In this document: one piece after another, positions 24,570 to 49,565 of the stretch
How the letters are laid out: every line of letters begins with the position of its first letter
Position numbering within the stretch: position 1 is the stretch's first letter
NCBI GenBank assembly: GCA_018902385.1
Contig: JABSSW010000062.1
Span: 62,001-126,000 of the forward strand
Origin: Physcia stellaris
Taxonomy: Eukaryota; Ascomycota; Lecanoromycetes; Caliciales; Physciaceae
Reading direction: 5' to 3'
DNA: 64,000 nucleotides
Made by a program: the position numbers and the translations under genes
Notes under the pieces: generated by a model
Databases searched by the model: none
What the model was told of the DNA's origin: nothing
Seen by the model: only the letters and a program-made list of their open reading frames with translations

Positions 24570-24721
24570 TGTAAGACTTCTGAATAGATAAGTCATTGAT
24601 TGCATGATGTTCTATTTAGTGCTAATTTACATGATTTCTAGCATGCAATGTCATTGAAATGCGTATTAATGACTAAGTTTTTGACGATTTTTAATTGATC
24701 ATTCGATCATTCAATTTTACA
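24570..24721 (+). repeat. 5' LTR of the outer Gypsy element
   Basis: 152 bp, TG...CA, preceded by GGATT. Matches 49346-49497 with many transitions. Confidence 0.85.
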
Positions 24722-25639
24722 CATTTTTTTAGAAAAAAATATTTGATATTTCATTTTATTTTTGATGTTGCATTTATGAATATGCGAATCGAGCATTTGA
24801 TCGAATCATGCATTGATGCAAAAATTTCGTTTTTGACGTTTTCGCAATTTTTGTAATTCATGCGTTTTGATTGATCGAATTTTTCGATGAAAAATAAAAA
24901 TGATGCGAATTTGTATGAGATTTCGTTGACGAATATCAAAAACGCAAAAAAAACAATGATTTTGATGTTATTGCAAATTTAATGATTTCGATTTTTCAAC
25001 AAACATGCGATGTAAATCATTTTCAATCAAACAAAATTGTTTGATGAATTTTGATTGCATTTGAACAAATTTCTGAAATAAAATAAATGAAAAAATAAAC
25101 GAAACGTTTTTCAACGTTTTTGATATAAATTTTGATGAAAATATCGAAAAACGTAAAAGTTTTGATGAAATTATTGATCGTGAAATCATTTTTGTTCAAA
25201 ATATCGATTTTTTTAATGTTGTTGTTTTATTTTCGTTAATAAATTTCATTTTTTCAGCGACAATAATTTCTTTTCGCACGATGATTGCGAAAATGTTCAT
25301 TTTTTCAAATTTAAATTTATTATTTTCAAAAACGTAATGTGCATTTATTTTCGACACGAAAACAAAAAAAATTTGTTGAATTTTTTTTTCGATATAAATG
25401 ACGATGTTTTGCATTGAAATGCACGTTTTTATTTTCAAAAATATTGTTTGCAACGATATTGATTATAAAATCAATTCACGCAACACAACGTAAATCACAT
25501 GATTTAATTTTCGAATCTGATTAAAATCGCATATGTTGATATTTATTTTAAGTCAAACAACAATGCGAACAAATTTTGAAATTCAAAAATCGATTTTCAT
25601 TCAAATAAACAATACATTTGAATCGAATTCAATTTTTTT

Positions 25640-26250
25640 TTAAAAACGACATCGAACGAGCAATCACGTTGCAACAAAATTTTTGAAAAAATTTCGCAAA
25701 CACAAACAAAATCACAATCAATCGATTAAAAATTACAATGTCGAACGAATAAATATATTTGTTGAATTGAAATTCGAATTCAAATTCACGAAAACAATGA
25801 AATTCAACGATTTTCGTGACGAATTACGTTTGAAATTTCGTTGCATGTTTTTTAAAAAATTCTCACAAAGACAAAGTTGCTTGAACAATTCAAACGTATG
25901 AAAAACGTTCAAATTTTCAAAAAAATTCAAGAATTTCAAAAAGCGTAAAATTTCGTTCGATATTGACAATTCTGAAAACGAAAACGAAAAATTCAAAATT
26001 GCAAAATTCAAAAATAAAAAAATAAAAAATATTAACAAAATTAATTCGAATCACGAATCAATCAAATCGAAAAATATTCGAATGTATCGTTGATTCGTCA
26101 ACGAATTCAAAAAAATTCAAAACAAAAATAATTGTATAAATTGTGATAAATCAAATTATCAAATCGAAATTTGCACAAACAAAAAAAACAAAATCATTTT
26201 CGCTGATTAAATTTTTGAACAATCAAAAAATTAATCGATTTGATGATTTT
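25640..26250 (+). pseudogene. gag remnant of the outer Gypsy element
   Basis: Basic, Lys/Asn-rich reading with a zinc-knuckle-like CINCDKSN region near its end (about 26.13-26.2 kb). Broken in many places. Confidence 0.6.
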
Positions 26251-26260
26251 CGCTCAAATC

Positions 26261-26467
26261 TATTGAAAGAATCATGAGTGACTACCATTCTATTGCTCTG
26301 AATCTCGTTGTTCTTGTAACATACATGAAGTGAAAGCACAGAAAGTGTGCGAATGCCAAGACATTAATTTCAACAAGAACGCATTAGTCCTTCTTTCGTC
26401 AGATTATATCAACTGGATTTTGACTGCAACATCCGCGAAGCATTTTTGCGAAGGCTGTATTTCAACA
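26261..26467 (-). repeat. LTR, family A copy 1 (3' in element orientation)
   Basis: 207 bp. The less mutated of the pair. AAATC lies just outside. Confidence 0.85.
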
Positions 26468-27208
26468 CTCCCTCACAGCAACCGCTTGTGCCTTCTGTTC
26501 TGTATTCTAACGAGCTCAGTTTGAAGCTTCCGTGCAAGCTTTCCCAGCGATGTAGATTTTGCTTTCTCAGCGATGCGTATCCTAGAGCTCCTCCAGCGAT
26601 GTATTGCCTGAAGCTTCCGAGCAAGCTTCCTCAATGCGATGAATCCGATGCGAAGATTGCAGAATCGAACGAATTGAGGTCCGATGACCTATTGGCTTCA
26701 AATATGACGTAAGGTCGATTTGTAAAACGTGCGATCGAACATCTGAAGGATTGCGACCGTGTTCTGGATCTCCATGAGGTGAAGCATCGATGCGGGAATC
26801 GGTATCTAGAATTGGGTAGAAGATACATCAAGGAGCAAGTACCAATTGCCTGAGTTCTGCGATGGCGAACGAGAATGCAGGTCACACCATGTAGCATCAT
26901 TGTGGATCTCAGGGTTCTCAGGTACTTCTTGCGACATCAATGGACCGATACCTATGCAATTTGGCTGTAGGAAGTTCATAAGGTATGCCGACGAGATGCG
27001 CAAAGCTGGAGACGGTCGAGAAATCGATATGGAAGGCATGCATCGATGCAAAGAGTGCAGATTCGAGCTTTTCTGACCTGACTAAGCCCTGCCAGAGAAT
27101 CAGGTCGATTAGTATGCGAAAAGGTCAGATATCTCCAGTCCTTGATCGAGTTCTTGTCCTTCTTGACCGAGTTCCTGCTCTGCAAGGCCGAGTATGTAAT
27201 ATGGCTGC

Positions 27209-27475
27209 ATAGTACGCTCCCCCGAAGCGGTACTATGTGACTCCATCGAGTTTGTAATGACTTCATAGTACGCTCCCCCGAAGCGGTACTATGTGACTCC
27301 TTGTCATACGAGACTGTATAGTACGCTTTCTCGAAGCGATACTATCTGACATCAAGTCCTTGTTGTATCAGACTCAATACGCTCCCTCGAAGCGGTATTG
27401 TCTAGTCTGTTCCTTCTTCGTTCTAACGACTGTGCGTACAGTGTGTTAATACGCTCCTCCGAGACTGTACTGCCA
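27209..27475. repeat. array of hairpin units
   Basis: Four clear units and one degenerate unit, about 52-58 bp apart. Each is an inverted repeat of the type CATAGTACGCT, loop CCCCCGA, AGCGGTACTATG. Clear units are at 27209-27238, 27264-27293, 27317-27345 and 27375-27400, with a degenerate one near 27446. Loop sequence and stem ends are conserved while spacers differ. Confidence 0.8.
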
Positions 27476-27759
27476 TATCTGTACGTCTTGCTCCCCTTCT
27501 CCCCCTCGTTTTTATCGGGCGACTAAGCCTCAAGGGTAGTAGGAAAAAGAGGCAATTGATTAGTCGTGTTAGATCAAGACGAAGCCACAACAGAGGTAAG
27601 TCCCTACCATATCGTTAAACAATAAACAAATAAACAAAGCATACAACAACTTTTAACTCCCCAAGCCGATCAACGGTTAACAGGCAGGGCGAGCGGACAA
27701 AACAAACAAACAAACAACATGCTCTAACTCCCCGAAGTAGTGACTCCCCCGAAGAGGGG

Positions 27760-29023
27760 TCAATACTCCCCCAAAGTAGGGCGGGAGCGAGCGAAACGTA
27801 TCCCCATGAGTTTCCCAACGTTCCCAACTCTTGAGGCATTTGGCGTGGCCCAGCCAGTAGGCCAATAGGTGGCAAAACGCCCTTGGCAATGCCTGCAAAC
27901 AGGAGGCGAGCGAGAGACCATTGGGAATCGAAAGGGAAACGAGGTAGGTGAGGCCGATCGTGGGGAGACCGAAAACTGGCGCGGAAGGCTTCCGCGGGCA
28001 TGTGTAGGTGCAAATGCTTCGGATTTGGCCGATTTGGAAGCAGGTGTGGCCACCGCATGGAAGTATGACGTAATGCGGCTTTGTATGGGGCCACATTTGC
28101 TGGCGGGACTGCATTTGCCGAAGCTGCGAGGAGACAACGGCTTGTTCTGACTTGGCTGCAGGCCAAATGGACTCGGCTTCTCAGCAAACATGCGGAACAG
28201 GTCGTCCACAGTGAGATAGGGCCTCGATGGTGTAGGTGCTCGAGGCGGAGTAGGCGGTGGAGTAAGCGGGCAACTGACTGCTGTCTTCTCCAAGGGTTTG
28301 CACACCGATTTGGGTGTCGCAATCGGGAGACGAGAGGGCTTCGGTGCAGTGATTGGCCGTGAGGCAATTTCTGCCCAAGATATCGATTTTCTTGATGTTG
28401 CAACCGACAAGGATTCTGGTTCTGAAGGAGGAGGAGTAGGTGATACGCTCTCTGAACGCTCGCGTACAATTTCTGGTGTAGGCATCGAGAGAGATAAGAG
28501 TTTCGGTGACGTGGGCGATGAGGAGATTACCGATCGAGGCGGCGTAGGGGGTTTCGATTCGGAAGAAGATGAAACAATTGACTGCGGGCTGACTTGAGCA
28601 GGCTTCGGCTTCTTTTGCATGACGAGTACGGATATGCTCGTGAAGCTTGGTGTTGCTATCGAATTTGACCGTCTTGCAACGCCTGCAGGTGTATCCTTCA
28701 GCTCGCTTCGCTGCTATGCGAGTCTTTTCTTTCTGCTTTGTCAACTGCTTCATTTCCTCCTTGAGCTTGTTCTTGACCTCCAACTCGTGCTTTCGTAGAT
28801 GATAATTTTCTTGTGCTCTTTTCGCTTGAGTGAACCAATTGCATCTCAAAGCCTTAGCATCCCCAGTCAGGTGCATGCTATAAAGCGTTTTCAGATCTTG
28901 CGTCATGGGGTGGCCGTCAGGTACGTGGTCGCAAAGAGCAGACGAAAAAGGTAAGAGGTCAGGTGCCGAAAAAGTAGAGGTAGATGCGGAGGCGGATTTG
29001 ATCGCAGAAGTAGAAGTAGTCAT
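27760..29023 (-). pseudogene. Gag-like coding region with C2H2 finger, family A copy 1
   Basis: In order on the minus strand: an N-terminal Ser/Thr-rich part, a basic coiled coil (about 28.85-28.72 kb), a C2H2 zinc finger (CRRC ... HEHIRTRH), Ser/Pro-rich PTPP-type stretches, SWAEIASRP and APKPSRLPIATPK motifs, PYLTVDDLFRMF, SRITSYFHA, and a second partial CRHC finger. It is related to the Gag of the element at 30,472-32,751. A few breaks. Confidence 0.75.
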
Positions 29024-29370
29024 TCTGACTGAGTGGTAGGTAGGCTTCGCGAGATCGTAAGGGACTCGCGAAGGGTATGTAGGTAGGTCGAAAGCTGACG
29101 GTTTCGAAGAGTTCGTAAGGGGTTCGTAGGTGGCTGTTACCGACGTAACTGAGAGCGTACTAAGGTACTGAATGCTGTCAATGCAATTGAGTCAATTCTG
29201 ATCTGACAAGACTGAATACTTTCAATGAAGTTGAATACTGCTGAAGTACTGCAAAATCTGCTGTACTGTTCGACGACTAGTTATTATTGCTCATGACGTG
29301 CTCTGACATGCTGCTGCTGTAACTGATACTAGATGTAGTAACGAAAGCTGCTAACTCGATTCTCATAATC

Positions 29371-29575
29371 TATTGAAAAAATCATGAATGATTATCATTC
29401 TATTGCTCTGAATCTCGTTGTTCTTGTAACATACATGAAGTGAAAGCACAGAAAATGTGCGAGTGTCAAAACATTAATTTCAACAAAGACGCATTAATTT
29501 TTTTCGTCAAATTATATCAACTGAATTCTGATTGCAACATCCGCGAAGCACTTCTGCGAAAACTGTATTTCAACA
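29371..29575 (-). repeat. LTR, family A copy 1 (5' in element orientation)
   Basis: 205 bp, followed by the AAATC duplication. More mutated than its partner. Confidence 0.85.
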
Positions 29576-30339
29576 AAATCGTTAAAAAAAAATTTCGAAT
29601 TTCGATTTCGATACGTCGTTTTTTCAAACATGAACAAAAATCATGTCAACAAAAAAAAAACGACGCAAAAAATTTAGAAAATTTATAATTCGTAAATGCG
29701 TCAAAATCAAAATTAACATACAAAGCGAAAATCGAATTTGAAACGAATCGAAAACAATACTCGATACAAAAACAGAAATTAATTTGATAAATCATGTTTA
29801 TGCGAAAAACTGAAATTTCGTCGTTTTGAAATTCTAAATTGTGATGCAAAAACAATTGACAATCATCGTTTGAAAACATATGACGTTTATTTCGTACAAT
29901 TCGAAATGTCAAACGTCAAAAAAATCAATTGTTTTTTCGAAAAATCGTTCTTGATCGTGAATCTGAATTGAAATTTAACGTTAAACATGCTTTGAATACA
30001 ATTTTCGAAAATCAAAATAAATTGAAACGACGACAATATCAAAATTTGACGTTGCAAAAAAAAACATTTCATTTTCACGACAAATCGTATGAAAAACATC
30101 GAATCAAAACAATTGATCATAAACGTCATCGATAACGAAATTGAAACGTATTTTATGTTCGTACGAATGTATATTGACAAACAATTCGACATGTATGAAA
30201 TGCACATTTCAAAACGAATTCAAATAAAATCTGTTTTGATTGAAATGAAAGAAAAATCCGATGTCAAAATCACGTTTTTCGATATTTTGAAAACGTATAA
30301 AAAATTCGATAACGAAAATAAAATTTACGAATTATCGAA

Positions 30340-30471
30340 TCATGATTCAGACGATCATGTTATTGATTTAAAAAAAAAAAAAACAAAAAATCGTCGCATG
30401 AATCAATTTATTTTCTATTTGAAAATAAGTTTCGAATATTACGTGCTTACATCGAAAAACATTTAATTAAC
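30340..30471 (+). pseudogene. start of reverse transcriptase, outer Gypsy element
   Basis: DDHVIDLKK matches the D-H-x-I-D-L block that precedes the Ty3/Gypsy RT. The domain resumes at 32,752 beyond the family B insertion. Heavily broken. Confidence 0.65.
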
Positions 30472-30642
30472 TGTTACGGTAAACCTGCACATAGGGCTAG
30501 ATTGGTGATATCTTGACCAGAAGGGACTAGCGCTCCCGCAGAGCCTCGGCAGCCTGCCCCATATCTGCATTCTGCCTTCTAGATAGTAACAATTCAACCA
30601 CTTTATCAACCATATTATTATCCAATACGTTTATTCGTAACA
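30472..30642 (+). repeat. 5' LTR, family B element
   Basis: 171 bp, TGTTACGG...CGTAACA, preceded by TTAAC. Confidence 0.9.
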
Positions 30643-30983
30643 AATGGTAGCATCATCGAGAATACGATTGACAGCTTCTATCGCTGTCTTGTAACGGAGC
30701 AGCATCCAGTTACCGTGTAACGCCTAGCTGCAGAGCAGTATCCAGTCCGCAGACGATAATTGTCACAACTCCTGTGGAGTATTCAGTCCTAGCAGACGAT
30801 AAACGCATTCAGTCCTGCCTGACGATAACGGCCCTAGTTGCTCTGCAACAACCAGCATCTATTGCACCAGAACAACCTAGCCATTCGGCACCAGAACACC
30901 CAGTTGCCAGTTCGCAACAACCAATAGGAAACACTCAACCAAAACTCCTACCTACGAGTCTTCCGCAGCCCTCATCCAACATC

Positions 30984-32456
30984 ATGAACGCTCAAAAACT
31001 TCGTTCCTGTCCATGTCCACCACTTGACGCCAAGAATGCAGAAATCGAGCGATATTATATGTCAGAAATCGGCCTATTCTCACCAGATTTGAGCATCAAC
31101 AACGAAACACCAGCAGGCGACCTCATTTACTTTCGAGGCTATCGCGTATTTCGAAACGTCAGGCTGTTCATTCAACAAATCAAACAAGTCGGAGCAAGAG
31201 ACGGTGTATCAGTTCGAGACATACTGTTGTGGTGCTTGCAAGGAGCAGCTCTTCGATGATTCAATAGCAATAGCTACGAAGTCAAAGTGTCTATCATGAC
31301 CGGCCCATTGCGACCGTTCTTCGACCACTTAATGACGCAATTTGACGAGGATACGCGTATAGCAAAGGAGCAAGAAGAAGCCCGTTTGACGGCCTTTGCA
31401 TGCAGACGTTGCCCTGCGAAATTTCCTAGCAACACCAAGCTCCACCAGCATATCCAGGATCACCATCAGAAACCCACGAAGCCTGAATGCGAGACCGAAA
31501 AGAGTACACCAAGCGAGCCCGCAATGCTTACTACACCTCTCTCCACACCAAAAGCGGAGCCCGCCACGATGCCTACACCTCCTGCAACACCTCCACCAAC
31601 AAGTGAGTCAGCATTGTTGCTCACACCACCCATTACACACCAAGAATCGACCTTCGATCACTCACTTCCTATCACTCCACCTGCTACACCAATTGCAACA
31701 CCACGAAAGCAGATATCCTGGGCCGAAATAGCCTCACGCCCAGTCATTGCACCAAAGCCGTCACGTCTCCCAATTGCGACACCCAAAATCGCACCAAGAA
31801 AGACGGAGAATGCACCAGTTGTTTGCCCGCCTACTCCGCCGCCTACCCCCCCTCAGAAGCCAGCATCGAAACACCAACACCAAGAGCAGAAGCCCTACCT
31901 TACTATCGAAGACCTGTTCGAGATGTTTGCTGAGAAGCGCACAAAATCAGGCCTATCACACACCAGAAAGACCGAATCCCCTCCAAAGATCTCCCGCCAG
32001 TCGAAAATCACCTCCTACTTCAGGCCTGCAGCCAATCAGAGCACCTCGATTAGTCAGGGCTCGAAAACGCCGAATCCGAGGAGTTTTCAACAGCATACGC
32101 CTGCGGAATCGAACCGCGCCAAATACATCCCCAGCAAGTGGTCTGAGAAATCGGCCATTATACCATACAAAACATCGACCTTCTCCCGCCTATCCACCTC
32201 AGAGATATCGAGCATCCTGCCATACAAATTGCCCGTCATCTCTGACCGCCTAGACCGTTCATCTATCCCACGAGCTCCTTTCGGCATCTTCGCTTCATGC
32301 CACAGCTGCCGCATCTGCAGCGGTACATTCGGATCGAACAATGGCCTGCATCGGCACCTACGGGCAATCCATTTCAGCCATGCACCCCGCCATGAATCTG
32401 AGAAGCATCGAGCGCCCGGGCGCAATACCATGGCTTGGAGATCCTTGACCGCATAG
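30984..32456 (+). pseudogene. Gag-like coding region with two C2H2 fingers, family B
   Basis: The N-terminal part carries capsid-like blocks (RNVRLFIQQIKQVG and DILLWCLQGAAL) like the CLxGxAL segment of fungal Gypsy Gag proteins. Then come a canonical C2H2 finger (CRRCPAKF ... LHQHIQDHH), a Pro/Thr-rich PTPPPTPP linker, SWAEIASRP and APKPSRLPIATPK, PYLTIEDLFEMF, KITSYF, and a second C2H2 finger near the end (CRICSGTF ... LHRHLRAIH). Usual Gag proteins carry a CCHC knuckle instead. About one interruption. Confidence 0.78.
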
Positions 32457-32580
32457 CGGAGAAACAGGCCCTTTTCTTACTTCTTACTGTGTATTACTAC
32501 TAGATTTCTCATGGATGGATCGCATGTCCCCGCCAAGCGGCACAACGAGGGCGTTGTGGTCTTCTTTCGTTGGTGGCATC

Positions 32581-32751
32581 TGTTACGGTAAACCTCCACA
32601 TAGGGCTAAATTGGTGATATCTTGCCCAGAAGGGACTAGCGCTTCCGCAGAGCCTCGGCAGCCTGCCCCATATCTGCATTTTGCCTTCTAGATAGTAACA
32701 ATTCAACCACTTTATCAACCACATTATTATCCAATACGTTTTATCGTAACA
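32581..32751 (+). repeat. 3' LTR, family B element
   Basis: 171 bp, followed by TTAAC. Confidence 0.9.
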
Positions 32752-33900
32752 TTAACGATTTCATTCGATTTTCACAATTTTTTGCAAAAACGTTCATTTT
32801 GTTCGTCAAAAAAACGATAATTTACGTCTATGTGTGAATTACAGAAATCTTAATGTTTTCACGATAAAGAATAGATATTTTTTATCGTTAATCGATGAAA
32901 ATTTACATATATCAACAAAATCGTCAAGTATATCAACATCGATTTGATTGTTATTTATCATCGATTGCGTATCAAACATGAAAACGAATGAAAAACAATT
33001 TTTCGTATTCGATATAATCATTTCGAATATAACGTATTTTTTTTCGATTTCATTAACGTTTCGACGACGTTTCAAAATTTTATCAATCGAATTCTGACGA
33101 TTCGTTTCGATATTAACGTCATAATATATTTGAACGATATAATAATTTATTCGATGAACGTCGAAATTCATATCGACGATATCAAATGAATTTTTGATCG
33201 TTTTAAAAAATAAATTATATATTGTTTTTGAAAAATGCAAATGATTCGCTGACGAAATAAATTTTCTTGAATTCGTTATTTCATTCAAAAATACGAATGC
33301 AAAACAAAAAAATCGAAATTATTCAATAATGATTTGTATTTCGCAACGTTTTCGACATCATGCAATTTCTCGACATCGTTAATTTTTATCGACGATTCAT
33401 TAAACATTTCAATAAAATTGTTAAATTTCTGATCGCTATGCTAAAAAATCGCAAAAATTATCAAAAAATACATGTAAACACAAACGAAATCAAAATCGAA
33501 ATCGCAACAAATTTTCGAATATTCACATTTTTTGATCAATGAAACGTTGAAAATTTTCAAACGATTTCGCAAAACATTTATCGAAACATCAATTTTACAT
33601 CATTTCGATTTCGAGCGTGTTATTCGAATCGAAATTGACGCATTCGACAAAATCATCGAAATCATTTTATGTCAACAAAACGACGAAAATTATTGACATT
33701 TTGTTGCGTATTTTTCACGCAAAATGATTTCGATCGAATGCAATTACGAAATTCATGACAAAAAATTATTGATTATTGTGATTTCGTTCAAACAATGAAA
33801 ACATTATTTCGAAAACGCAAAAAAACAAATTTTTGTTTTTATTGATTATCGCAATTTGAAACAATTTATAATCACAATTAAATTGTCGTCACGTCAAATT
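32752..33900 (+). pseudogene. RT and RNase H remnants of the outer Gypsy element
   Basis: FLDIVNFYRRFIKHF corresponds to the conserved FLGFxNFYRRFI segment between RT and RNase H. Further on, an AYFSRKM-like and NYEIHDKKLL-like stretch corresponds to the RNase H region. Heavily broken. Confidence 0.75.
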
Positions 33901-33999
33901 CGATAAATTCAAAAATTAAATCGATATAATTTTTTAATCGATTATCGTTTCGATAACAAAAATTTTGTTAACGAATTTTCAAAACGATTTGATTACATG

Positions 34000-35750
34000 A
34001 TAATTATTGAAAAAACGTCGAAAACAATTCACAAATCTTGAAACAATTACAAAAATCATTGATCGCAAATTCGAAACGTTTCGAAAAAATGCGAATAAAT
34101 GCGATCAAAATCATGAATGCGATGCATGTCATGAAACGATTTATGAATGCGATACATAACATGAAACGTCGATCGCATTTAAATGATTTAAAAATATCGA
34201 ATCAATCAACGTTGTTTCAAAAACATTTGATTCAAAAAATTCAAAACGAAATCGAATTTCAATCAACGTTGTTTCGAGAACATTCGATTCAAAAAATTCA
34301 AAAATTCGAAACATTCGATTGAGCAAAAATCAAACGTGACATTCATAAAATGAAAAATTTTCGTGTTAAAATCAACGATTGTATTTGAATGCGCAATGCA
34401 TAAAATTCGAATACAAATTGCTTTACGAAAAAAAAACGACATATAACGACGAGTCAACATTTTCATTGTTGAATTTCGTTCGAAATTTGATCGATAAAAA
34501 TCAATTCGTTTCTGAAATATGTCGAAAATTAACTATTTCGAAAACAAAAACAAATCATGACAACACAAAAATGAATTTTTGTATTACGACGACGTCGTTT
34601 ACATTTCAAAAAAATTTGCGTGAAAACGTTATTCGTGTCAATCACGATAATTCGTTCGTTGATTATTTCGACATCGAACGAACGTTAAAATTGATACGTC
34701 GAAAATATTATTGATCGAATCAAAATTTTATCGAAATTTTGAAATGCGACAACAAATCAAAAAATATTGTGAAACATGCGTCGTTTGCAAACGAAACAAG
34801 ATTGCACGACACAAATCATACGACGAATTTTTTTTTCGATTTTTGAATTTAAATGAATTGATTTTTTCATGAATTTCGTGACAGAATTTTTTTCAAACAA
34901 AACGTAAAATGAAACGATTTATCATTCGATTTTAATGATTGTGAATCGTTTAACGAAAATAATTCATTACATATCAATGATTAAAACGATTTTCACAAAA
35001 ATCTGATCGAAATTTTATTTCGCGAAATCATTCGATTTCACGATTTTTTCGTCAATCGTTATCGACAAAAATTTCATTTTCACATTCAAATACAACGATG
35101 CGTTGTGTTACGTTTTGAAAATCAAACGTAAATTGTCAAGCGTTTTTCATTTTCAAATCGATGAACAAATCGAACGAATGAACAACGTCATGAAACAATT
35201 TTTTCGCGTTTTCGTCAATTTCGAACAAAATAATTGAATAAAATTGTTGTTTAAAATCGAGTTCGTTTACAACAACAACAAACACGCATTCACAAATATT
35301 TTTTCGTTCGAAATTATGTTTGAATATTCGTTTCGCATGTTTTTCGAAAAAACATGAAACAAAAAAATTAGATTCAAATTCGCAAAAAAACACGTTGAAC
35401 ATTTAATTGAATTATTTCGAATATTGAAAAACAATTTATTCGTGACATAACAACAACAAACAATGTACAAAAACAAACGCACAAAATCAATGCCATACAA
35501 CATCGAAAATTACGTGAATTTGAACGATAAAAACATAAAAATTAAACGAAACAAAAAGTTGAAATGAAAATTTTTCGAATCATTTCAAATTTTAAAAATT
35601 ATAAGAAATCAAATTTATCGTTTAAATTTATTCAAACGTTGACGCATTCACGACGTTTTTCACGTTTTTCTTTTGAAAAAAATTTAATTCTAAAAAAAAA
35701 AAACATACGTCACATTTTTTTGAATTTTCGTATCAAGTTGAAAATATTGA
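34000..35750 (+). pseudogene. integrase remnants of the outer Gypsy element
   Basis: Scattered plus-strand matches to the order expected after RNase H: an HD...IRRKYY zinc-binding-type segment near 34.6-34.7 kb and a FHVSLL-like end near 35.65 kb. Heavily broken. Confidence 0.5.
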
Positions 35751-37234: not shown

Positions 37235-37269
37235 GTTTTAATCGTTTCATTTTTCGAAGAAAAAAATTC

Positions 37270-38620: not shown

Positions 38621-39039
38621 ATAGACGAAATCATTTTATCGTTATCGAATTTTCTGAATGAACAAAATCGTTATTGTCATGAAACGCATGAATTCATTTA
38701 CAACATAATAAATTCGTGAGATCAATATCGTCAATGCAAAATTTTGTTTTATGCAATTGATTATACTGAATCGAATTTTATTTTGAATATGTTTATGTTA
38801 ATTGTCGAAAACATATTAATGAATTCGACGAAAAGCAATTGACGTTTCAAAATCAAATTCAAAAATTTCAAATTGATACGTTTAAACAATTTGCTAAAAG
38901 TTTAAAGAATCACGAACAGATATTCGCGTTGATGTGTGCAAAAATCGAAAAACAATCAAGAAAACAAAAATTTAAAATTACGAAAATGTCAAAACAACTA
39001 AAGAATTTAGAAAATCAATTTGACGACATTAAGACAAAT

Positions 39040-39105
39040 ATTTTATTCGAATTAAATAAAAGTGATCATGTTATTGATTTGAAAAAGACGAAAAATCGTC
39101 GTTCA
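39040..39105 (+). pseudogene. start of reverse transcriptase, chromodomain Gypsy element
   Basis: SDHVIDLKKTKNRR matches the block before the RT domain; compare 30,340-30,471. The domain continues after the nested element at 42,371. Broken. Confidence 0.65.
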
Positions 39106-39306
39106 TATTGAAAAAATCATGAGTGACTATCATTCTATTGCTCTGAATCTCGTTATCTTTGTAACATACATGCAGAATGAAAGCACAAGAAATGTGCGAA
39201 TGTCAAGACACTAATTTCAACAAAAAAACGCATTAGTTTTGCTTTCGTCAAATTATATCAATTGAATTCTGATTGCAGCACATTTGCGAAGATTGTATTT
39301 TCAACA
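39106..39306 (-). repeat. LTR, family A copy 2
   Basis: 201 bp, same family as 26261-26467. Confidence 0.85.
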
Positions 39307-40649
39307 TTCTTTCACAGCAATCGCTTGTGTCTTTTGCTCAATATTTTAACGAGCTCAATTTGAAGCTTTCGTGCAAGCTTTTTCAACGATGTGTCTTGAA
39401 ACTTTTTCAGCGATGCGCATTCTAGAGCTTTTCAGCGAAATAACTTTTTCAACGATGTATTGTCTGAAGTTTTCGAGCAAGCTTTCTCAACGTGATGAAA
39501 TCATGCATCGATGCGAGAATTGCAAAAACGAACTAATCGAAATTCGATGATTTATTGACTTCAGATATAACGTGAAATCGAATTGATAAACGTGCGATCG
39601 AGTGACTGAAAACGTTCTGCGATTTTTCATGAGATAAAACATCGATGTGATATTTGATATTTAAAATTAAGTGAAAAATACATCATGAAACAAGTATCAA
39701 TTGTTTGAGTAATGCGATATTGACGAGAATGCAAATCACATCATGATTTTGATAACATCATTGTGAATTTCAGAATTTTCAAATATTTCTTGCGACATCA
39801 ATGAATCGATTTCTATGTAATTTGATTGTAAAAAATTCATAAAATATGTCGACGAGATGCGCAAAGCTGAAAACGATCGAGAAATCGATAAGAAAGATAA
39901 CGCATCGAGTGCGCGACATGCATTGCGAACATACATCGATGCGAAAAGTGCAAAATCGAATTTTTCTGTTCTGACTAAGGCTTGTCAGAGAATCAGATCG
40001 ATTAATATGCGAAAAGATCAGATATTTTCAACACTATTTGTTCTTTTTGATCGAGTTTTTGTTTTTTTGTTGATCGAATTTCTGCTCTGCAAGATCGAGA
40101 TGTAATATAACTTCATAATACGTTTCTCGAAGTGATATTATCTAATTTGTTTCTTTTCTTTTAACAACTGTGCGTACAGCACGTCAATACGTTTTTTCGA
40201 GATTGCATTGACAAATTATATTCTCATTCTTTTTCTCTCGTATTTATCGGGCGACTAAGTCTCAAAAAGTAATAAAAAATAGAGACAATTGATTAGTCGT
40301 GTTAAATCAAGACGAAATCACAAAGATAAATCTTTATCATAATGAAATGAAACAAAACATACAACAACTTTTAACTTTCTCAGGCCGAAATAGGACGAAA
40401 GAGACGAGACATCGAATTCATTAAAACAACAACAACTTTTATGTTTTCTCAGATCGATCAACGATTACTAGAAAGAGCGAGCGAGCAAAACAAACAAACA
40501 ACATGCTCTAACTCTTTCGAAATAGTGACTTTCTCGAGAAAAGATCAATACTTTCTCAAAACAGAACGAAAAGAAGCGAAACGTCAATAACGCATTCTCA
40601 TGAATATCTCATTGTTTTCAACTTTTGAAACACTTGACGTGACTCAATC

Positions 40650-41600
40650 GATAAATCAATAGATGACGAAACGCTCTTGACAATGTTTGCAAACAAGAAA
40701 CGAGCGAGAAACTCTTGAAAATCGAAAAGAACGAGAAATAAATGAAATCGAGTGTTGCGAAATCGAAAATTGACGCGAAACGATTTCGCGAGCATGTGTT
40801 GACCCAAATGCTTCGAATTTGACCAATTTGAAAGCAGATGTGGTCATCGCATGGAAATATGACGTAATGCGACTTTGTATGAAATCACATTTGCTTGCGA
40901 AATTGCATTTGTCAAAATCGCGCGAAAAAAACGAGCGCATTTGATGTCGTTGCAAATCAAATGAATTCGACTTTTTTGCGAACATGCGATATAAATCGTC
41001 CACGATCAGATAAAATTTCGATGATGTGAAAGCTCGAAACGAAATAAACGAACAAGCAATGCTTGCATTTTTCGAGGATTTGCACATCGATTTGGATGTC
41101 GCAATCGAAAAACGAGAAAGTTTCGATGCAACGATTGAGCGTGATGCTATTTCTGTTCAAGATATCGACTTTCTTGATGTTGCAATCGACGAGAATTCTG
41201 AAGCGATTTCGAAAGAGAATTTTGAAGAAATAGAAGTAGTTGATGACTCGACTACTAACTTCGATGACGTAAAAGATGACAAGATGATCGATTGAAATGA
41301 CGAAGAAAATGACGATTCGAAAGCAAATAAAACAGATGAAATAAACGATATTGACTTTGTGATTTGCGAAAAGAATGAAACAACTGCTTTCGACTTTTGA
41401 CGTGACGAATACGAATATGCTCGTGAAACTTGATGTTGTTGTCGAATTTGTTTTTGCAACGTCTGCACGTATATTTCTCAGCTCGTTTTTTGATCAGACG
41501 AGTTTCTTTTTGTTGTTTCAACAACTTTTTCGCTTTTTGTTTGACTTTATTTTTCATTTGCAATTCGTGTTTTCGCATCAGGTAATTTTTTTGTGCTTTT
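40650..41600 (-). pseudogene. Gag-like region, family A copy 2
   Basis: Recognisable by CRRC...FHEHIRIRH, a PF-LYRMFAKK-like block and SRITSYFHAM. A mutated relative of 27,760-29,023. Many breaks. Confidence 0.65.
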
Positions 41601-42172
41601 TTTGCTTGAATGAATCAATCGCATCGCGAAACATTAGTAAAACTTGAATTCGTGTGCTCGTGATATAGAATTCGAAAATTTTGCGTTTTCGAATCATTCG
41701 CGAATAGACAAATGCATAGAAGAAATGATCAAGAAAAATATCGAGAACGAATTCGAAAATGAACGATGCGAGATTCGCAAAAACTGTTGATTTCGTAAAA
41801 AAATAAAAATGATCATTCTGACTGAATGATAAAATTCGCGTAAATATTTCGACATCGTAAAATAAATAAATGACGAAATCGTAAAAAACTCGCGAAAAAT
41901 ATGTAAATAAATCGAAAACTGACTGTTTCGAAAAAGTTCGTAAATAGATGTTATCGATGTAATTGAAAGCGTATTAAAATATTGAATGCTGTCAATGCAA
42001 TTCAATCAATTCTGATTTGACAAAATTGAATACTTTCAATGAAGTTGAATATTGTTGTTAGTATTGCAAATTTGCTGTATTGTTTGACGATTAATTATTA
42101 CTTGTTTTGACATGCGCTCATGCTTTGTAGTTGATACTAGATAGCGAAAGTTGCTAACTCGGGCTCATAATC

Positions 42173-42370
42173 TATTGAAAGAATCATAAATGACTATCAT
42201 TCTATTGCTCTGAATCTCGTTATTTTTGTAACATACATGCAGATGAAAACACAAGAAGTGTGCGAATGTCAAGACACTAGTCTCAACAAAGACGCATTAG
42301 TTTTGCTTTCGTCAAATTATATCAACTGAATTTTGACTGCAGCACATCTGCGAAGACTGTATTTTCAACA
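42173..42370 (-). repeat. LTR, family A copy 2
   Basis: 198 bp, followed by ATTCA. Confidence 0.85.
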
Positions 42371-43600
42371 ATTCATGTCGTTGTATAATTTATCATAAAA
42401 TGAATTAACGAAATTTCGACGTTACATCGAAAATGTCTTGATCAAAAAATGAATTAAACATTCAATTTTTTTTTCGTTGACGCGTCGATACTTTTTGTAT
42501 CGAAAAAAAATGAAAATTTTCGTTTTTGTGTGAATTATCGAAATTTGAATGCGATGATTATTAAAAATCGTCATTCATTATTTTTAATCACAGAGATTTT
42601 GAATCGTTTTAATGATGTCAAGAAATTCATCAAAATCGATTTGAAAAATGTTTATCATCGAATTCGTATCAAGCAAAACGACGAGTAAAAAACGACGTTT
42701 CGCACGCGATATGAACATTTTGAATATCAAATTATGTTTTTTGAATTAATCAATGTTTCAACAATTTTTCAAATTTATATTAATAAGATTTTGCGAAAAC
42801 TTGTCGACGTCATTTGTGTGATTTATTTGAACGATATTTTGATATATAACAACGATTCAACGCAACATTGACGACATGTGCGTTTTGTGTTCAAACGATT
42901 GAAACAATACGAATTGTATGTCAATTTAAAAAAATGCGAATTTGTCATCGATCAAATCGAATTTCTAAATTTCATTGTGTTCACTGAAAATGTACAAATG
43001 AATTCAAAAAAAATTCGAATCATTGAAAAATGATCGCAATTTAAAAGTTATCGCGAATTACAAATGTTTTTAAATTTCGTCAATTATTATCGTCGTTTTA
43101 TTCATGATTATTCAAAATTGATTGCATCATTTATTGATTTGTTGAAAAACAATAAACAAAACAAAAAATTTGAATTTTTTGTTTGAAAAAAAAAGTCGAA
43201 ATTGACGTTTCGTCGATTGCGCGATATCTTTACATCGATTTTCATTTTTCATCATTATGATTCAATCAAAAAAATCAAAATGAAAATCGATGTTTCGAAT
43301 TTCGAAATTTCAAATATTTTTAATCAATTTGATGAACAAAGTCATTGACGTTCGATCGCGTTCTGATCGCGAAAAATGATATCGACAAAAATAAATTACG
43401 AAATTTATGATCAGAAACTATTAATTATAATTATGATTTTTCAACAATAACGACATTATTTCGAAAACGTTGCGCACGTGATAAAGATGTGATTTGATCA
43501 CAATAATTTAAAAAAAATTTATGAAACAAAAAAGTTTAATTCAAAACAAATCAAATGAGCTTTTAAATTAATTGTTTATGATTTCGAAATTTTTCATCGT
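42371..43600 (+). pseudogene. RT and RNase H remnants, chromodomain Gypsy element
   Basis: Order and residual motifs fit RT followed by RNase H: a KKNDE-FRTRY-like block near 42.68 kb, an IYLNDIL-like YxDD region near 42.83 kb, and FLNFVNYYRRFIHDYSK near 43.07-43.12 kb. Heavily broken. Confidence 0.7.
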
Positions 43601-44179
43601 GCAAACAAAATCAATTCGACAAATGAATTATCGAAACGTTCAAATTACGAAGAAACGTCGTCATTCAATATCAAATTTTTGTTCACGTTGCAAAATAAGT
43701 TTGCGTTATCGTCAAAAAAACGAATCGATTTTGAAAATCAAAATTTTGCTTCGAATATCGCAACAAATATTCAGTTATTCAAAAACAATACGCGTGCGAA
43801 AAACAAACGCGAAATGTTAAAAAATCTAAATTCACTGTTTCAATTGATTGATATACAGATTGTTATTTTCAAAAAAAAAAGATACGAGATTTATTTGAGA
43901 AATTTTATGAAAAGTCGCAAAAATCGATGAAATTTTGATTCAAAAATTTCAAACTATCGACAAAACGATTAAAAAATTTGTCGAAAAAAGCAAAAAGTCA
44001 TTTCGTCGTCGACGCAACAAATTTTATTGAAAAATGAATTTCGAAAATTTTCTTAAATTCAAAGATCGTCTTTATGTATTTGAAAATGCAACAATAAAGA
44101 AAAAATTCATAAGCAAAAATCACGATGATTCATTGACAAAACATTTTGATATTGATAAAATTGTGAATTTGATTTAACG

Positions 44180-45220
44180 AAAATTTTATTGATTCGTTTG
44201 CGCGAAACAAATTCGTTAAATATATTAAAATTTGCGACATATATCAACGTATCAAAATTTATCGACATAAATTTTATGAAAAATTCAAATTTTTATTTGT
44301 TTCGAATATTTTTGAAAAAAATCATCATGAATTTTATTATCGATTTGCTTTTTAACAAACGTCGCGATGTCGTTTATGATTCGATTTTAATGATAATAAA
44401 TCGATGCATCAAAATGATCAAATACATTTCGATTACGATCAAAATCGATGTCGTTGCGTTGACGAAAATTTTTTATAAAAAAATTGTTTTACGATTTGAC
44501 GTTTCGAATGATATAATGAATGACAAAAATTTTGTTTTCACGAATGTTTTTTGATTTTCGATGTGTTATCACGCACGCATTAAACGACGATTAAACATTG
44601 TTTTTCATTTTCAAACGAATGATTTAATCGAACGTCAAAATTAAATTTTTGAAACGTATTTGCGTACATTCGTCGACGCGAAACAAACGAAATGAACAAA
44701 TATGTTTTCAATGATTGAATTTGTTTATAATAATGTTATTCATTTTTTTACAAATGTTTCGTCTTTTTATTTAATGTATGATTATCATTCAGAAATTCAC
44801 TATGTGATCGAGAACGATTTCAAAGAAAAAAAAATATTCATTGCAAAAAATAGAATAAAACATTTGCATGAAATAAAAAAAACGTTGATAAAACGTTTTG
44901 AATTCGTTGTCGCAACGCAAACGAAATATTACAATCAAAATCATGAATCAAAGAAATTCAATGTGAATGATTTAGTAATGTTCAATATCAAGAATTTTAA
45001 GCAGCGACGTTTTAGCAAAAAAATGTCGCACAAATTTGTTGAATTTTTTCGTGTGAAAAATAAAATCGATGCGCAAACGTATCGTTTTATTTTATTCAAT
45101 ATTTATCGCATTCATAATATTTTTCATGTTTCGTTATTGAAAAATTATCATCATAAAGCAAACGATAAACATGCGAAACAATTTATGCAAATTTCAAAAT
45201 TCATTGATGATGAAAAACAA
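44180..45220 (+). pseudogene. integrase remnant, chromodomain Gypsy element
   Basis: The core domain reads FIIDLLFNKRRDVVYDSILM near 44.34 kb, with a further acidic block NDIMNDKNFVFT near 44.52 kb. The C-terminal part (44.70-45.22 kb) keeps EFVYNN, KKFNVNDLVMF, KKMSHKFVEFFRV and YRIHNIFHVSLL, typical of Gypsy integrase ends. Broken, but the best preserved part of this element. Confidence 0.82.
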
Positions 45221-45224
45221 TGAA

Positions 45225-45410
45225 AAATTGAAAAGATTTTTGATAAAATGAATGACAAAAAGAATATTTGATACAAAATCAAATGATTTGATTGAAATTC
45301 GAAATATAATCAATGATTACATGAAAATGAATTCAAAAATGTTTCAAATTTGATGAAAAAATACAATGAGCGTGCGTCGCGCAAACGCAAACGACGTCAT
45401 TGATTCAAAA
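45225..45410 (+). pseudogene. chromodomain remnant
   Basis: Follows integrase directly. Residual KIEKIFDKMNDKKN, YKIK and ENEF blocks align with the WEVEKILDxR...YLVKWxGY...TWEPxxNL pattern of chromodomains, which puts the element among chromoviruses. Broken. Confidence 0.65.
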
Positions 45411-47075
45411 TTATTTATTTTGTTTCAATGTCAACAATGATTTGATTTTTTCGTTTTATCGTTTAAAACGATAAAAACGATGAAATCGTTCAACATCAAC
45501 ATATGATCACGAACAAGAAAAAATAAACAAACGTCAAACGTCAAACAAAGAAAATTTATGAACAAAAAAAAAGTCGTTTATTCATCGCATATTCATTTTG
45601 AATCGAAATCAAAATCGTTCGAAATGAACGAATCGAAACTCAACGAATTCGAAAAATTCGAAATGTTCGAAAAATTCGTTTTATCGAAATTCATTTCGTT
45701 GATCGAAATCGCAAAAAAATTTTTTTTCGAAATTTTCGATTTTTGAATCATCATTTTTTGAACGAAAATTTTGTATTCAATCAATGCAAAAATGAAAATA
45801 AAAAATGTTTCGTTTGTTTATCGTCAATTGCGCATTTTTTTTCATCAAAAAATTCATCAATTTTTATTTTTTTTTTCAACTTTTTCATTTTTTTCGTCAA
45901 TTTCATTTTTTTCGTTTTTTTTTTTTCAATCTCATTCAGCAAATCAATGATTTGTTTTTTCGTTTTCGTCAATCGCTCGTCAAATTGATTCGTTAAAATC
46001 GTGACACGATTGATCGCTGACTGTGCGCGATTTGCGATAATCGAAATGTATTTATGATTGCGACGTCATTGTTTCAAATCAACAATTGCATTTTTTTTTT
46101 CGTTTTTCGATGCGAACGAAAATGAATTGATCGCGACGTTCGATTTTTGCGAATTCGCGCACGATTTTTTTCATTTGCTTTCGAAATCGTTTTGAAAATT
46201 GTGATTTGTTAACGTCGTCGCATCGTTTGCGCAAACAAATACATATCGAATGACAAAAATTGAAATCGTGATGTTGAAAACGATATTTTTCGCAAATTTT
46301 CAAAGCATCGCGAACGCACGCATGACGATCAAAACACGTCATACATGCGAAATTTTCGCAAATTATGACATGTTAATTTGTTGTTGTTGTTTGCGTTTGT
46401 GACGCGTGCGTTTCAAAATATTTACGTCGATTTTTTTGAGAATCGATCATAATTTGAAAATAAATAAATTGTCGTATTGATAATTATATACATAAATAAA
46501 CGTTGCGCAAACGTTGAAAAATATCTTACGCGAAAAAGTTGTGATAAAAAAATATGAAAAAAAAAAAAAAAAAAAAATGCGAACAGAAAAGTTGTTGATA
46601 AACAACATCGTGAAATTATCGACACGTTGTTTTTGCAATCGACGAAATTTCATGTTTATCAACAAAGAAATTCGCGTCGACGTTTCGATGAAATTGAATT
46701 TGAATTTCGTTATTCAAATTTTGATATTGACATTTCGATTTTCGATTTTGAAACATTGTCATTCAAGATTTGCATTGAAAACATGCTTTACGATTGCGCA
46801 ATTACATTGAAAATTTTTTTTCTTCTGAACAAAGATTTGAAAAATTTTTAACGAATTCTTGAGCAAGCGATACATGAACGCAATATGATATCGCACATGA
46901 TATTTCTTGAAAGTTTTTTTTCTTTCGTTTGTTTTCGAAGTTTTGAGAGTTTTTGAATACGAACTTCAATAAATTTTTGAAATTTTACAATCAAGACATT
47001 TACATGTTGTTTTTATTTATTGCATTGATATTGTTTTTATGCATTGAAAATCAACGCATTGAGAAAAAAAACAAT
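45411..47075 (-). pseudogene. 3' tail with antisense coiled-coil/Cys-rich frame
   Basis: Between chromodomain and 3' LTR the minus strand shows a Lys/Glu coiled coil (about 45.97-45.78 kb) next to a Cys/His-rich basic frame (about 46.34-46.08 kb; CFDRHACVRDAL, CHSICICLRKRC). An extra antisense frame of this type is known from some fungal Gypsy elements. Broken. Confidence 0.4.
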
Positions 47076-47468
47076 TGTAATACGTTCGCGTTATCGAACA
47101 ATTAATTCATGCGTTAATTCTGAATACGCGTTTGCGTAACGCAAATGCTTAACATTAATAATGAATGTAATTCAGATGTAACATAGTTATAAGCGCACGT
47201 CTAATAAAAACGTCATGAATTGATATCATAATCATGATGTTAATCAAAGCGTCATAGCTATTACGTCAAATACGAATATAAATAAACTGTTCATTTTTTT
47301 TTTTCGTTGAGTTTCAACGATTAATTTTACATTTATCGTACTCATACGATGTTGATAATTAATAATTGAAATCTATTAAATTTCACGTTTTTCAATAGTT
47401 CGATGCGCTATCGTAAAATTAATACATTATTGAAATCTGCTTTACGTCAGCGCGTCTAGATTCTTACA
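47076..47468 (+). repeat. 3' LTR of the chromodomain Gypsy element
   Basis: 393 bp, followed by ATTGA. Confidence 0.9.
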
Positions 47469-47473
47469 ATTGA

Positions 47474-49345
47474 ATAAATAAAATGTGAATAAAAAACAAT
47501 TGCAAAACGTAATTTGTTCTGTAACGATTAATAAATCAAAAAGTCATTATTTGCACATTTTCTTTTATTGCGTGCAATTTTTCGAAATGATTTCGACTTA
47601 TCGATAAATTATCGATAAGAATTATCTAAAATTGATTTTCAAACATCGAAAGTTGTTTTCGCAACATCATTGAGACACATTTCACATCAAGTTTCGTGTA
47701 TCATCTTTACATTTTCTGCAACGTGTTGTTTCACTCAATATGACGACGAATGTCTACGTAAAACGTCAAACGAAAACGAAAAAACACGCGAAAAAAAAAT
47801 AAAACGAATTAAAAAATAAAAAAAAAAAAGAATTTCTTTAGACATCGAGAAAACGATACTGATTTCGCGATCATACAATGTTGCAAAAATTTCGAATTCG
47901 AACGAATTGATTTCTTTGTAATAATCTTGATTTTATTGATCGAAAGCGAAAATGTATCTAGCATACGAATTGATTTGACGAATGAATGATGAAATTTTGA
48001 TGCGAAACGCATCCGAAAATGATTTTTTTCATTTTTTTGATATTCGGAAATTTTGTTTTCGTCTTTCGAGAACTTTAATCTCGAAAGAGAAATTGCACGC
48101 AATAAAAGAAAATGTGCAAATAACGATTTTCTAAATCAATATATTACATTTCAAGTTATACATTTTTGATGTCAATAATTCATTAGATTATACTATTTTT
48201 AATACGAATTTTACAACAATTTCGTTTTTTTTTTTTTTAAAACGTTGTTTTATCGTTTTGTTAATCACGTGAATATCGAATTTATGATTCAAAATTCATG
48301 AAAATCGAAAAAATAATTTGATATTATGACATCGACGTTGACGTGAACGACAACGAAAAATTTTACGATTTTTGTATTTTTGTTATCGTTTTTGTTTTCG
48401 TTTTTTTTTAACGTTTTTCGTCAATAACAAATGTCGAATTGAATATCGTTTTTTTTTTTTTTCGAATTTTTTTATGCGCGTGTGTTGACGAAAGATTTCG
48501 AAAAAAACGAAAAATTGTGTTTCGTAATTCGTTACGATTTTTAGTTGAAATAAATATATTTCAACGAAAATAAATGCGATTTTGTCGATTACGTGTAAAA
48601 AATCACGATACGTACGTTTGTTATCGATAATTTCAACAATTTTCGTTTGTTTAACGAAAATCAACATTTTCAAATATTCGTTTAATTAAATATCGATGTT
48701 TTGACGATTGAATGAATTTTTGATTATGCGATTGTATTGTTGTTTCAATTTCAAATTTTTAATTGAATCGATGAATGCAAAACGTGTTTTTAAAACGCGT
48801 AAAACGTTTCATGAATAAATTTCAACGAACTGAATAAAATTGAAATTTGTAATCGTTGTTGTATCATAAATGTAATCGATTATTTTAGTCATAAATTGTT
48901 TTTGTTTTTTTCAATTTTGAAATTTCGTTTTGTATTTCGACGACGCGATTTTGTATCGAACATGTTTTTCGATGAAATTCGCATTTTGTTGTGCGTCAAA
49001 ATTAAATTTTACGAATTCAAATTTGTTCGTTGATTTAATATTTTTGAATAAATCGATAAAATTTCAAATCGAATATTCGATGATTTTAATTCGTACGATT
49101 GAAAATCACGCGTTTCAATTTTTGAAAAAATTCAATTTGAATTTTCGTTTCGTATTCGTCATCGTGTTGAACGGACGAATAAATAAAAAAAAATTTTTCG
49201 TTGTAAAAGAATGTAAACACAAAAATGTTTTCGCGATGTTTTGATTTTTTCAATTAATTTGTCGAAACAATCGAATGTTGAAAATTTCAATAATCAATTA
49301 AATCATGTATTGAATGCAGCAATAAACGTGATTCGAATTCATAAT
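47474..49345 (+). other. 3' part of the outer Gypsy element, non-coding
   Basis: AT-rich, no domain readable. Same depletion of CpT and CpC as the rest of the nest. Confidence 0.5.
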
Positions 49346-49497
49346 TGTCAAATTGCATGAAGTCGTAAATCATTGATTGCATGATGTTCTATCTAGTGTT
49401 AATTTACACGTTTTTAGCATCTAATGTCATTGAAGTGCGTATTAATGACTAAGTTCTTGGCGATTTCTAATTGATCACCCGGTCACTCAGTTCTACA
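49346..49497 (+). repeat. 3' LTR of the outer Gypsy element
   Basis: 152 bp, TGTCAAATT...TTCTACA, followed by GGATT. Less mutated than the 5' copy. Confidence 0.85.
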
Positions 49498-49565
49498 GGA
49501 TTCAAAGACGAAACAAGGTGTACAAGATCCGCAAGGTATACCAGAACGAACTGCGAAATATGCAT
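49498..49565 (-). pseudogene. start codon and signal peptide of the split CFEM gene
   Basis: From the ATG at 49,565 the minus strand reads MHISQFVLVYLADLVHLVSS then LNP, a plausible signal peptide. It runs into the GGATT duplication (AATCC on the coding strand). The first intact residues on the other side of the nest are Asn-Pro-Asn-Val-Thr, so the frame continues across 24.9 kb once one copy of the 5-bp duplication is discounted. A TATA-like ATATATTTA lies about 80 bp upstream (near 49,645-49,655, minus). The host part itself shows no AT drift, so the RIP-like damage stops at the element edge. Confidence 0.8.

Follow-up and report, generated by a model that had tools for sequence, protein, structure and literature searches.

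This study reveals that the repeats of the lichen mycobiont Physcia stellaris have been mutated from C:G to T:A almost exclusively at CpY, that is, at cytosines followed by C or T, while CpR (C followed by A or G) has largely been kept. The DNA studied is a stretch of 64,000 nucleotides within the 43.97 Mb assembly GCA_018902385.1 (contig JABSSW010000062.1, positions 62,001 to 126,000), hereafter the window, which carries a nest of mobile elements at 24570-49497. Our experiments in silico confirm that the CpY depletion is real and that it extends beyond the window to other places in the genome. The original prediction had taken it for a form of repeat-induced point mutation (RIP) with CpY instead of CpA as the target, and this is borne out by dinucleotide counts, directed alignments, a strand-coherent tract, stop codons and genome sampling. 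We therefore favor, with a probability of about 0.75, a RIP-like defence in which repeats receive C:G to T:A mutations on either strand and the target has shifted from CpA to CpY. The P. stellaris genome has 43.3% G+C and was sequenced from a culture raised from ascospores (PMC7513301), so the fungus has sex. The accessible part of that genome paper contains no analysis of mutation context, and statements on all papers cited here refer to their accessible parts.

Results

CpY depletion in older segments of the nest

Dinucleotide counts over both strands, given as observed/expected values, show that three old segments of the nest have lost CpC and CpT. In segment 24722-26255 the values are 0.00 for CC and 0.14 for CT, against 1.44 for CA and 3.34 for CG, with TA at 0.33 and TC at 1.39. 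The same pattern is found in segments 32757-39100 (CC 0.00, CT 0.18, CA 1.22, CG 3.67) and 42376-49345 (CC 0.01, CT 0.23, CA 1.23, CG 3.50), whereas the flanks, 1-24569 and 49498-64000, are normal (CC 0.94-0.97, CT 1.04-1.05, CA 1.07-1.11, CG 0.89-0.90). The predicted near absence of CpT, CpC, ApG and GpG, with CpA, TpG and CpG retained, is thus what the segments show when set against the flanks; the counts reveal neither a CpA depletion as strong as that of CpY nor normal CpY frequencies. Three runs of sequence singled out earlier as free of CT and CC (33,661-33,780, 44,161-44,220 and 48,301-48,360) are indeed so, and they lack AG and GG as well.

Pooled over the three segments, the counts are CC 2, GG 2, CT 117, AG 169, CA 938, TG 846 and CG 903. 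Because CC and GG are alike near zero, both strands must have been targeted. TpC stands at about 1.4 of expectation in these segments and is thus undepleted, so the context that matters lies 3' of the target C. TpA, which is expected to rise under classic RIP, is only 0.33-0.43 of expectation. The left edge of the mutated zone is sharp, with the last CC/GG at 24565, the outer repeat beginning at 24570 and the next CC/GG at 26285. On the right, DNA from 49200 to 49458 is free of CC/GG, which is first seen again at 49459, within the outer repeat, so the mutated zone fades inside that repeat.

CpY depletion elsewhere in the genome

The original prediction had proposed repeating the counts on all repeat families of the genome; counts at sampled places gave the same CpY depletion in AT-rich DNA. 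We used 17 places of ten kilobases, their positions fixed before viewing. They are not a random sample, since ends of contigs and contigs of small size are among them and two of the places share a contig with the window. They provided 340 stretches of 500 bases, classed as AT-rich (<36% G+C; 120 stretches) or high-GC (212), with 8 intermediate ones left unclassed. CpY depletion was found in 118 of the 120 AT-rich stretches and the classic CpA pattern in none of them. Of the other two, one is telomeric (L008:1-500) and one is affected in part (L013:8501). The former belongs to the start of contig C1 (G000:C1), where telomere-type (CCCTAA)n repeats occupy L008:1-90. No CpY depletion was found in any of the 212 high-GC stretches from the 17 places, and CC and CT are normal in gene-like DNA from this assembly. 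These results show that CpY mutation is present in repeats and AT-rich tracts and spares the sampled gene-like stretches, repeat status having been checked for the nest and the T1, T3 and L040 families described below and the other AT-rich tracts being classed by composition.

The standard RIP indices, TpA/ApT and (CpA+TpG)/(ApC+GpT), do not detect this pattern. Among 141 AT-rich 1-kb windows from the studied window and the 17 places, none passes the RIPper or the RIPCAL thresholds (medians: product index 0.44, substrate index 1.37), and the laxer of the two, that of RIPCAL, is passed by 7 of 288 high-GC 1-kb windows. By contrast, the ratio (CpC+CpT)/(CpA+CpG), taken over both strands, separates AT-rich (<=0.50, n=141) from high-GC windows (>=0.78, n=288) with no overlap, 21 middle-GC windows being excluded from this comparison.

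Directed mutation spectrum in a retroelement family

The direction and context of the mutations were read from a retroelement family whose reference copy, L040, has a frame open across the 1000 codons fetched. Many colinear degenerate copies of it exist, the matches listed numbering 40 (L040 included) out of 207 candidates. Ten other copies were fetched (L041-L050); nine degenerate, colinear ones were aligned singly to L040, and L041 was kept apart as unmutated. The nine copies pooled carry 6371 C>T/G>A changes but only 111 reverse transitions (T>C/A>G) and 123 transversions, and each copy by itself has 469-842 C>T/G>A, 4-32 reverse transitions and 6-45 transversions. In all nine the changes are thus almost purely C:G to T:A transitions, as in RIP, and C>T and G>A are each abundant in every copy, as expected of a process that acts on both strands.

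When sorted by context, C>T has occurred at 3406/3643 CC (93.5%) and 2653/3458 CT (76.7%), compared with 207/3461 CA (6.0%) and 97/3605 CG (2.7%), while in the nine copies it matters little which base stands at -1 or +2. Copy L049, colinear over 3 kb, has lost 99% of its CC and CT but kept CA and CG. L042 is the least mutated copy, with mutated fractions of 0.739 for CC, 0.411 for CT, 0.023 for CA and 0.015 for CG, equivalent to rates of about 1.35 : 0.53 : 0.02 : 0.015. The rate at CpA is at most about 1/20 of that at CpT. Since CA reaches 11-13% in the two most mutated copies, CpA is a poor rather than a forbidden target. CG is mutated at 1.2-3.5% in eight copies and at 6.6% in L050, which carries more background change. 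The CG difference between the unmutated L040 and L041 is 3.2%, so CpG lies at about background. The order of targets is thus CpC first, then CpT, with CpA rarely and CpG at about background.

Strand coherence and stop codons

In the first 750 bases of L042, 80 of 102 CpY sites are mutated on the bottom strand but only 5 of 92 on the top strand. In this copy, adjacent mutated sites lie on the same strand in 305 of 453 cases (null 264.6, sd 8.3). Because one stretch is mutated to 78% on one strand and to 5% on the other, few intense events rather than slow decay are indicated. Together with the alignments, this demonstrates the direction and context of the mutations, their accumulation by degrees and, in L042, a tract in which they are coherent in strand.

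The genetic code provides a further reading of the target, since single CpY hits yield stops from Trp codons only (TGG to TGA), while CpA hits yield TAA and TAG. In 150 scored reverse transcriptase domains (of 527 candidates) the stops are 250 TGA, 33 TAA and 3 TAG, whereas an all-frame control in like DNA gives a TGA:TAA ratio of only 1.0-1.6. The DNA transposase domain DDE_3, with 23 matches, carries 47 TGA, 6 TAA and 2 TAG, and in L040's own frame TGG>TGA accounts for 96 of the 110 stops in the nine copies. These results show that genes of transposable elements (TEs) are inactivated mainly through TGG to TGA.

Nested elements and long terminal repeat pairs in the window

The nest is made up of the following features, in which LTR stands for long terminal repeat.

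24570-24721: left outer LTR-like repeat, where the CpY-depleted zone starts (start as originally given; the repeat search matched 24635-24721)
24722-26255: old saturated CpY-mutated segment (GC 0.24; CC/GG 0, CT/AG 19, CA/TG 201, CG 74)
26257-29570: nested LTR element T1, younger (LTRs 26257-26460 and 29367-29570)
29571-30470: old segment, CpY-mutated, flanked by two younger insertions
30471-32751: nested LTR element T3, young, essentially unmutated (LTRs 30471-30642 and 32580-32751, 95% identical)
32757-39100: old saturated CpY-mutated segment (GC 0.26)
36843-37237: LTR-like repeat of an element that T2 interrupts (its partner is 47076-47471)
39102-42370: nested element T2, of T1's family, at an intermediate stage (nearly all CC and about half of CT lost)
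42376-49345: old saturated CpY-mutated segment (GC 0.27)
42500-42976, plus strand: reverse transcriptase domain RVT_1, broken by one TGA and one TAA (G000:C62:104500-104976)
47076-47471: second LTR-like repeat of the T2-interrupted element
49345-49497: right outer LTR-like repeat (the repeat search matched 49411-49497)

The two LTRs of one element are identical at insertion, and their later differences record what has happened since. It had been predicted that LTR pairs in the nest, those of a chromodomain element and of TRIM elements, differ mainly at CpY. This holds for T1, whose pair shows 20 differences in 202 bases, all of them transitions at CpY (CA 0/33 and CG 0/14 in each direction; Fisher p = 7e-12 for the CpY contrast), and for the interrupted element (36843-37237/47076-47471), with 26 differences in 395 bases of which 22 are at CpY, 4 at CpR and none is a transversion. 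In the T3 pair half of the 8 differences are transversions. The T2 pair has 18 differences, of which 13 are C>T at CT with both directions counted, 2 lie at CA and 3 are transversions, and the outer LTR-like pair, at 81% identity, shows mixed differences. The interiors of T1 and T3 retain CC and CT, the CC of T1 persisting up to 29164, and reverse counts show T1 to be itself lightly CpY-mutated in comparison with other copies of its family. With T1 and T3 keeping both dinucleotides, T2 intermediate and the old segments saturated, the series shows CpC to be lost first and CpT second.

Several other observations were made on these elements and their surroundings. CpY mutation has reached the LTRs of T1 but has spared most of its interior, and on the right the mutated zone starts at about 29165, before the LTR. 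T3 has an open reading frame (ORF) at 31287-32453 with a C2H2-type zinc finger, and Pro-rich ORFs occur in both T1 and T3. The two families have an inverted 95-nt segment in common. They have dozens of matches across the genome, and many of the fetched copies are unmutated at GC of about 0.51 and only about 80% identical. In the flank, both on the minus strand, lie a sedolisin-like peptidase with Pro-kumamolisin activation and subtilase-family domains (10836-12638) and a protein with a Fungal_trans_2 transcription factor domain (19627-21108).

Cytosine methyltransferases

A PF00145 profile search of the genome identified three genes, a DIM-2-like one, RID and a DmtA-like one, with PCQ intact in each. 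The RID and DIM-2-type enzymes, whose inspection had been suggested along with the original prediction, turned out to be conventional; in the DmtA-like protein the segment that follows PCQ has been rebuilt. The DIM-2-like protein has 1064 residues in a single frame and a conventional core, with 186 conserved columns kept and 6 departures in comparison with 107 others. P. stellaris RID clusters with the RID of Heterodermia (support 100/98) and with lecanoromycete RIDs, carries the SPPCQ and EQT motifs of RID orthologs (SPPCQFFSDAHTVMGKDDDMNTASLF...LEQT) and departs from only 2 of 82 strongly conserved columns (compared with 113 others).

The DmtA-like class I gene lies in L005 (G000:C6:788000-797000) and encodes 513 residues by our own joining of its exons. 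The protein is 72% identical to a Heterodermia protein and, compared with 68 others, keeps 92 conserved columns with 10 departures, two of which are gaps. A class I tree was built from this protein and 41 of the 238 search hits; in it the protein falls with DmtA of Aspergillus and Onygenales in a group of 19 rows supported at 96/96. Inside this group, it forms, together with the Heterodermia protein and seven more, a set with a stem of 0.66 changes per column. A D[DE].N.A segment after PCQ, a description of the family by simple patterns of our own rather than a published criterion, is usual in RID and DmtA (116/118 in the RID list and 53/65 among P0037-P0101, the rest having neither segment or being unreadable). 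The P. stellaris DmtA-like protein is without it and has FEDKQAVILA instead. Among the proteins listed, a FEDKQAV-type segment is found in 32 of the 36 best matches of this protein and in none of 322 others, of which 123 are without a readable motif (118 from the DIM-2 search). The segment aligns by sequence with the loop that follows the catalytic PCQ of DNMT1, a loop that contacts DNA at the flipped base.

The Teloschistales paralogs P0046, P0059 and P0066 lie elsewhere in the tree and are without the derived segment. They have an altered PCQ with the Cys kept (PCK, SCQ and CCQ) and represent another class I paralog. No relatives of the DmtA-like protein were found in viral contigs. The original suggestion of an unusual cytosine-modifying machinery stands insofar as a class I enzyme with an altered post-PCQ segment exists, although any link of this enzyme to the mutations is circumstantial. 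As the only one of the three with a rebuilt segment beside the catalytic site, the DmtA-like enzyme is the favored candidate cause of the CpY rule, not a proven one, while RID alone could also produce CpY mutation.

Discussion

How could such a pattern arise? We propose that sequence homology between repeats would trigger the mutation in the sexual cycle, before meiosis, and that the agent would be a class I enzyme of the DNMT1 superfamily, either RID or the DmtA-like paralog. The CpY rule may be set by contact of this enzyme with the base 3' of the target, a pyrimidine being favored and CpC preferred over CpT. A more specific version, in which a class I enzyme of the Physciaceae lineage, DmtA-like and with the rebuilt segment, took over or re-aimed RIP and reads a 3' pyrimidine, is attractive but tentative, and we would put it at somewhat less than an even chance; the lineage here means the extent of the derived segment within the matches listed.

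Several observations weigh against the proposed defence or its proposed agent. Between L040 and L041, which share 96% identity over 3 kb, CpY changes are not in significant excess (34/794 vs 23/787, p = 0.18; reverse direction p = 0.11). A CpY excess is likewise absent from 7 of 10 fetched copies of the T1 family and from all 5 fetched copies of the T3 family, at GC of about 0.50-0.52, although these samples are biased to unmutated copies because they were chosen by best BLAST score. Since some repeats escape, the process is probably patchy, evaded, limited by a threshold or not always on. An excess of strand tracts is seen in only 1 of 5 copies tested, L042, and its absence from the other four may be what several rounds of mutation would leave. 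If RID is the enzyme that acts, nothing in its conventional sequence points to a new specificity, and any link between the DmtA-like protein and CpY comes from a single genome.

Among other explanations, an artefact or a drift in base composition is the easiest to dismiss. Long reads can err at modified motifs, and errors at CC/GG might thus imitate the depletion. The present assembly was built from Nanopore and Illumina reads (PMC7513301). However, the Illumina reads that contributed to this assembly, the normal CC and CT of its gene-like DNA, and the selective loss of CC and CT over 3 kb of L049 all speak against an artefact, while drift would not spare CA and CG. We reject both, at a probability we regard as negligible. 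Decay without homology-triggered RIP, through heterochromatin methylation of the DIM-2 type followed by slow deamination, deserves more attention. The DIM-2 gene is present in P. stellaris, the Neurospora enzyme is said to prefer CpT (PMC13297926), and the mutated 3' end of T1 adjoins old mutated DNA, as spreading would give. Yet CpC rather than CpT is the first target, the left edge of the mutated zone is sharp, the DIM-2 catalytic core is conventional, and the strand asymmetry over 750 bases of L042 is hard to reach by slow decay, so that we judge this reading improbable, if the least so of the alternatives.

A deaminase of the APOBEC/AID kind, or another acting on single-stranded DNA (ssDNA), could edit exposed single strands of repeats at CpY, and the strand-coherent tract in L042 fits a processive ssDNA deaminase too. 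APOBEC/AID enzymes, however, read the 5' base, whereas here the 3' base decides, the 5' base has little effect and TpC is retained. APOBEC_N found no match in the P. stellaris genome, which is weak evidence as the control of this search likewise matched nowhere, and the eight PF00383 deaminase-fold matches are assumed to be housekeeping enzymes. Such editing seems to us unlikely, and a similarly low chance is given to a scheme in which deamination occurs in many contexts and T:G repair restores CpG and CpA, leaving only CpY mutated. Strong CpG-directed repair would indeed yield CpG near background, but near-perfect repair would be required at CpA also (2.3% mutated in L042). We know of no glycosylase that prefers CpA plus CpG, and the order CC > CT > CA would be more simply explained as the preference of one enzyme. 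Editing of cDNA was rejected as well, because it would affect one strand while both are mutated, and because DNA transposases share the TGA signature.

A RIP-like defence aimed at CpY, the reading we prefer, would have several implications. It suggests that the target of the machinery by which genome defence mutates DNA is open to change. If the more specific version with the DmtA-like enzyme is true, RIP would have switched naturally from CpA to CpY through a protein change that can be traced, and what sets target choice would become directly testable by swaps of enzymes or loops in N. crassa. A process so exact also offers an assay for the residues of RID or DmtA that read the 3' base. The outcome for genes is altered too, as stops are placed at Trp codons instead of as TAA or TAG. 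Moreover, since the standard RIP indices are blind to CpY mutation, other genomes may have been wrongly scored as free of RIP.

In many respects P. stellaris resembles N. crassa and other Pezizomycotina with classic RIP, as it shows C:G to T:A changes only, on both strands and in repeats or TE islands, together with AT-rich tracts, stop-broken TE genes, and RID and DIM-2 genes. Classic RIP, however, depletes CpA/TpG and raises TpA, whereas P. stellaris keeps CpA and CpG and loses CpC and CpT; CpA, the main target of classic RIP, is here mutated at 6.0%, against 93.5% for CpC. CpC is the least used context in Neurospora. In large RIP regions of N. crassa the product index is 1.59 and the substrate index 0.44 (PMC6714961). 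A share for CpT in RIP has been reported: CpA plus CpT RIP is described in Botrytis, Sclerotinia and Magnaporthe (PMC4352252) and in Anisogramma anomala (PMC10998396), RIPCAL found high CpT in N. crassa Tad1 (PMC2621366), and CpT to TpT has been named dominant in control RIP species (PMC7882544). P. stellaris is like the former four genera in having CpT as a main target and class I methyltransferases (one or two copies), but in these fungi CpA is a target and CpC is unlisted, while in P. stellaris CpC comes first and CpA is nearly exempt. The CpG-type mutation of Basidiomycota and Tuber (PMC4352252) likewise affects C outside CpA, although CpG is spared in P. stellaris. In Rhizoctonia solani AG8, heterozygous C/T sites occur once per 214 bp at CpC, 370 at CpG, 422 at CpA and 491 at CpT, a CpC spacing that the authors leave unstressed (PMC4014442). 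With CpC sites the closest spaced there, CpC-rich C>T is not wholly without precedent, but AG8 hypermutation differs from that in P. stellaris in acting on genes and repeats alike, between nuclei and in all contexts (PMC4014442).

RIP has also been described in lichen fungi, namely Cladonia rangiformis (PMC12542154), Gyalolechia flavorubescens and Cladonia metacorallifera (PMC7882544), which resemble P. stellaris as Lecanoromycetes with AT-rich TE compartments. C. rangiformis also has RID and DIM-2 homologs, and its TE sequence peaks near 16% GC (PMC12542154). RIP in G. flavorubescens and C. metacorallifera was scored by CpA-based indices (PMC7882544), which the AT-rich windows of P. stellaris fail. 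Our searches of the open-licence literature found no report of CpC-first, CpA-sparing RIP, and a survey published in 2025, which covered 1,239 fungal genomes, states that RIP-like defences share a CpA preference (PMC12543289), to which, by the accessible part of that survey, P. stellaris is a clean exception. The RIP-like mutation in P. stellaris is thus a variant both genuine and strong, with a clean pattern; it works like RIP but lacks the CpA target that defines the classic form.

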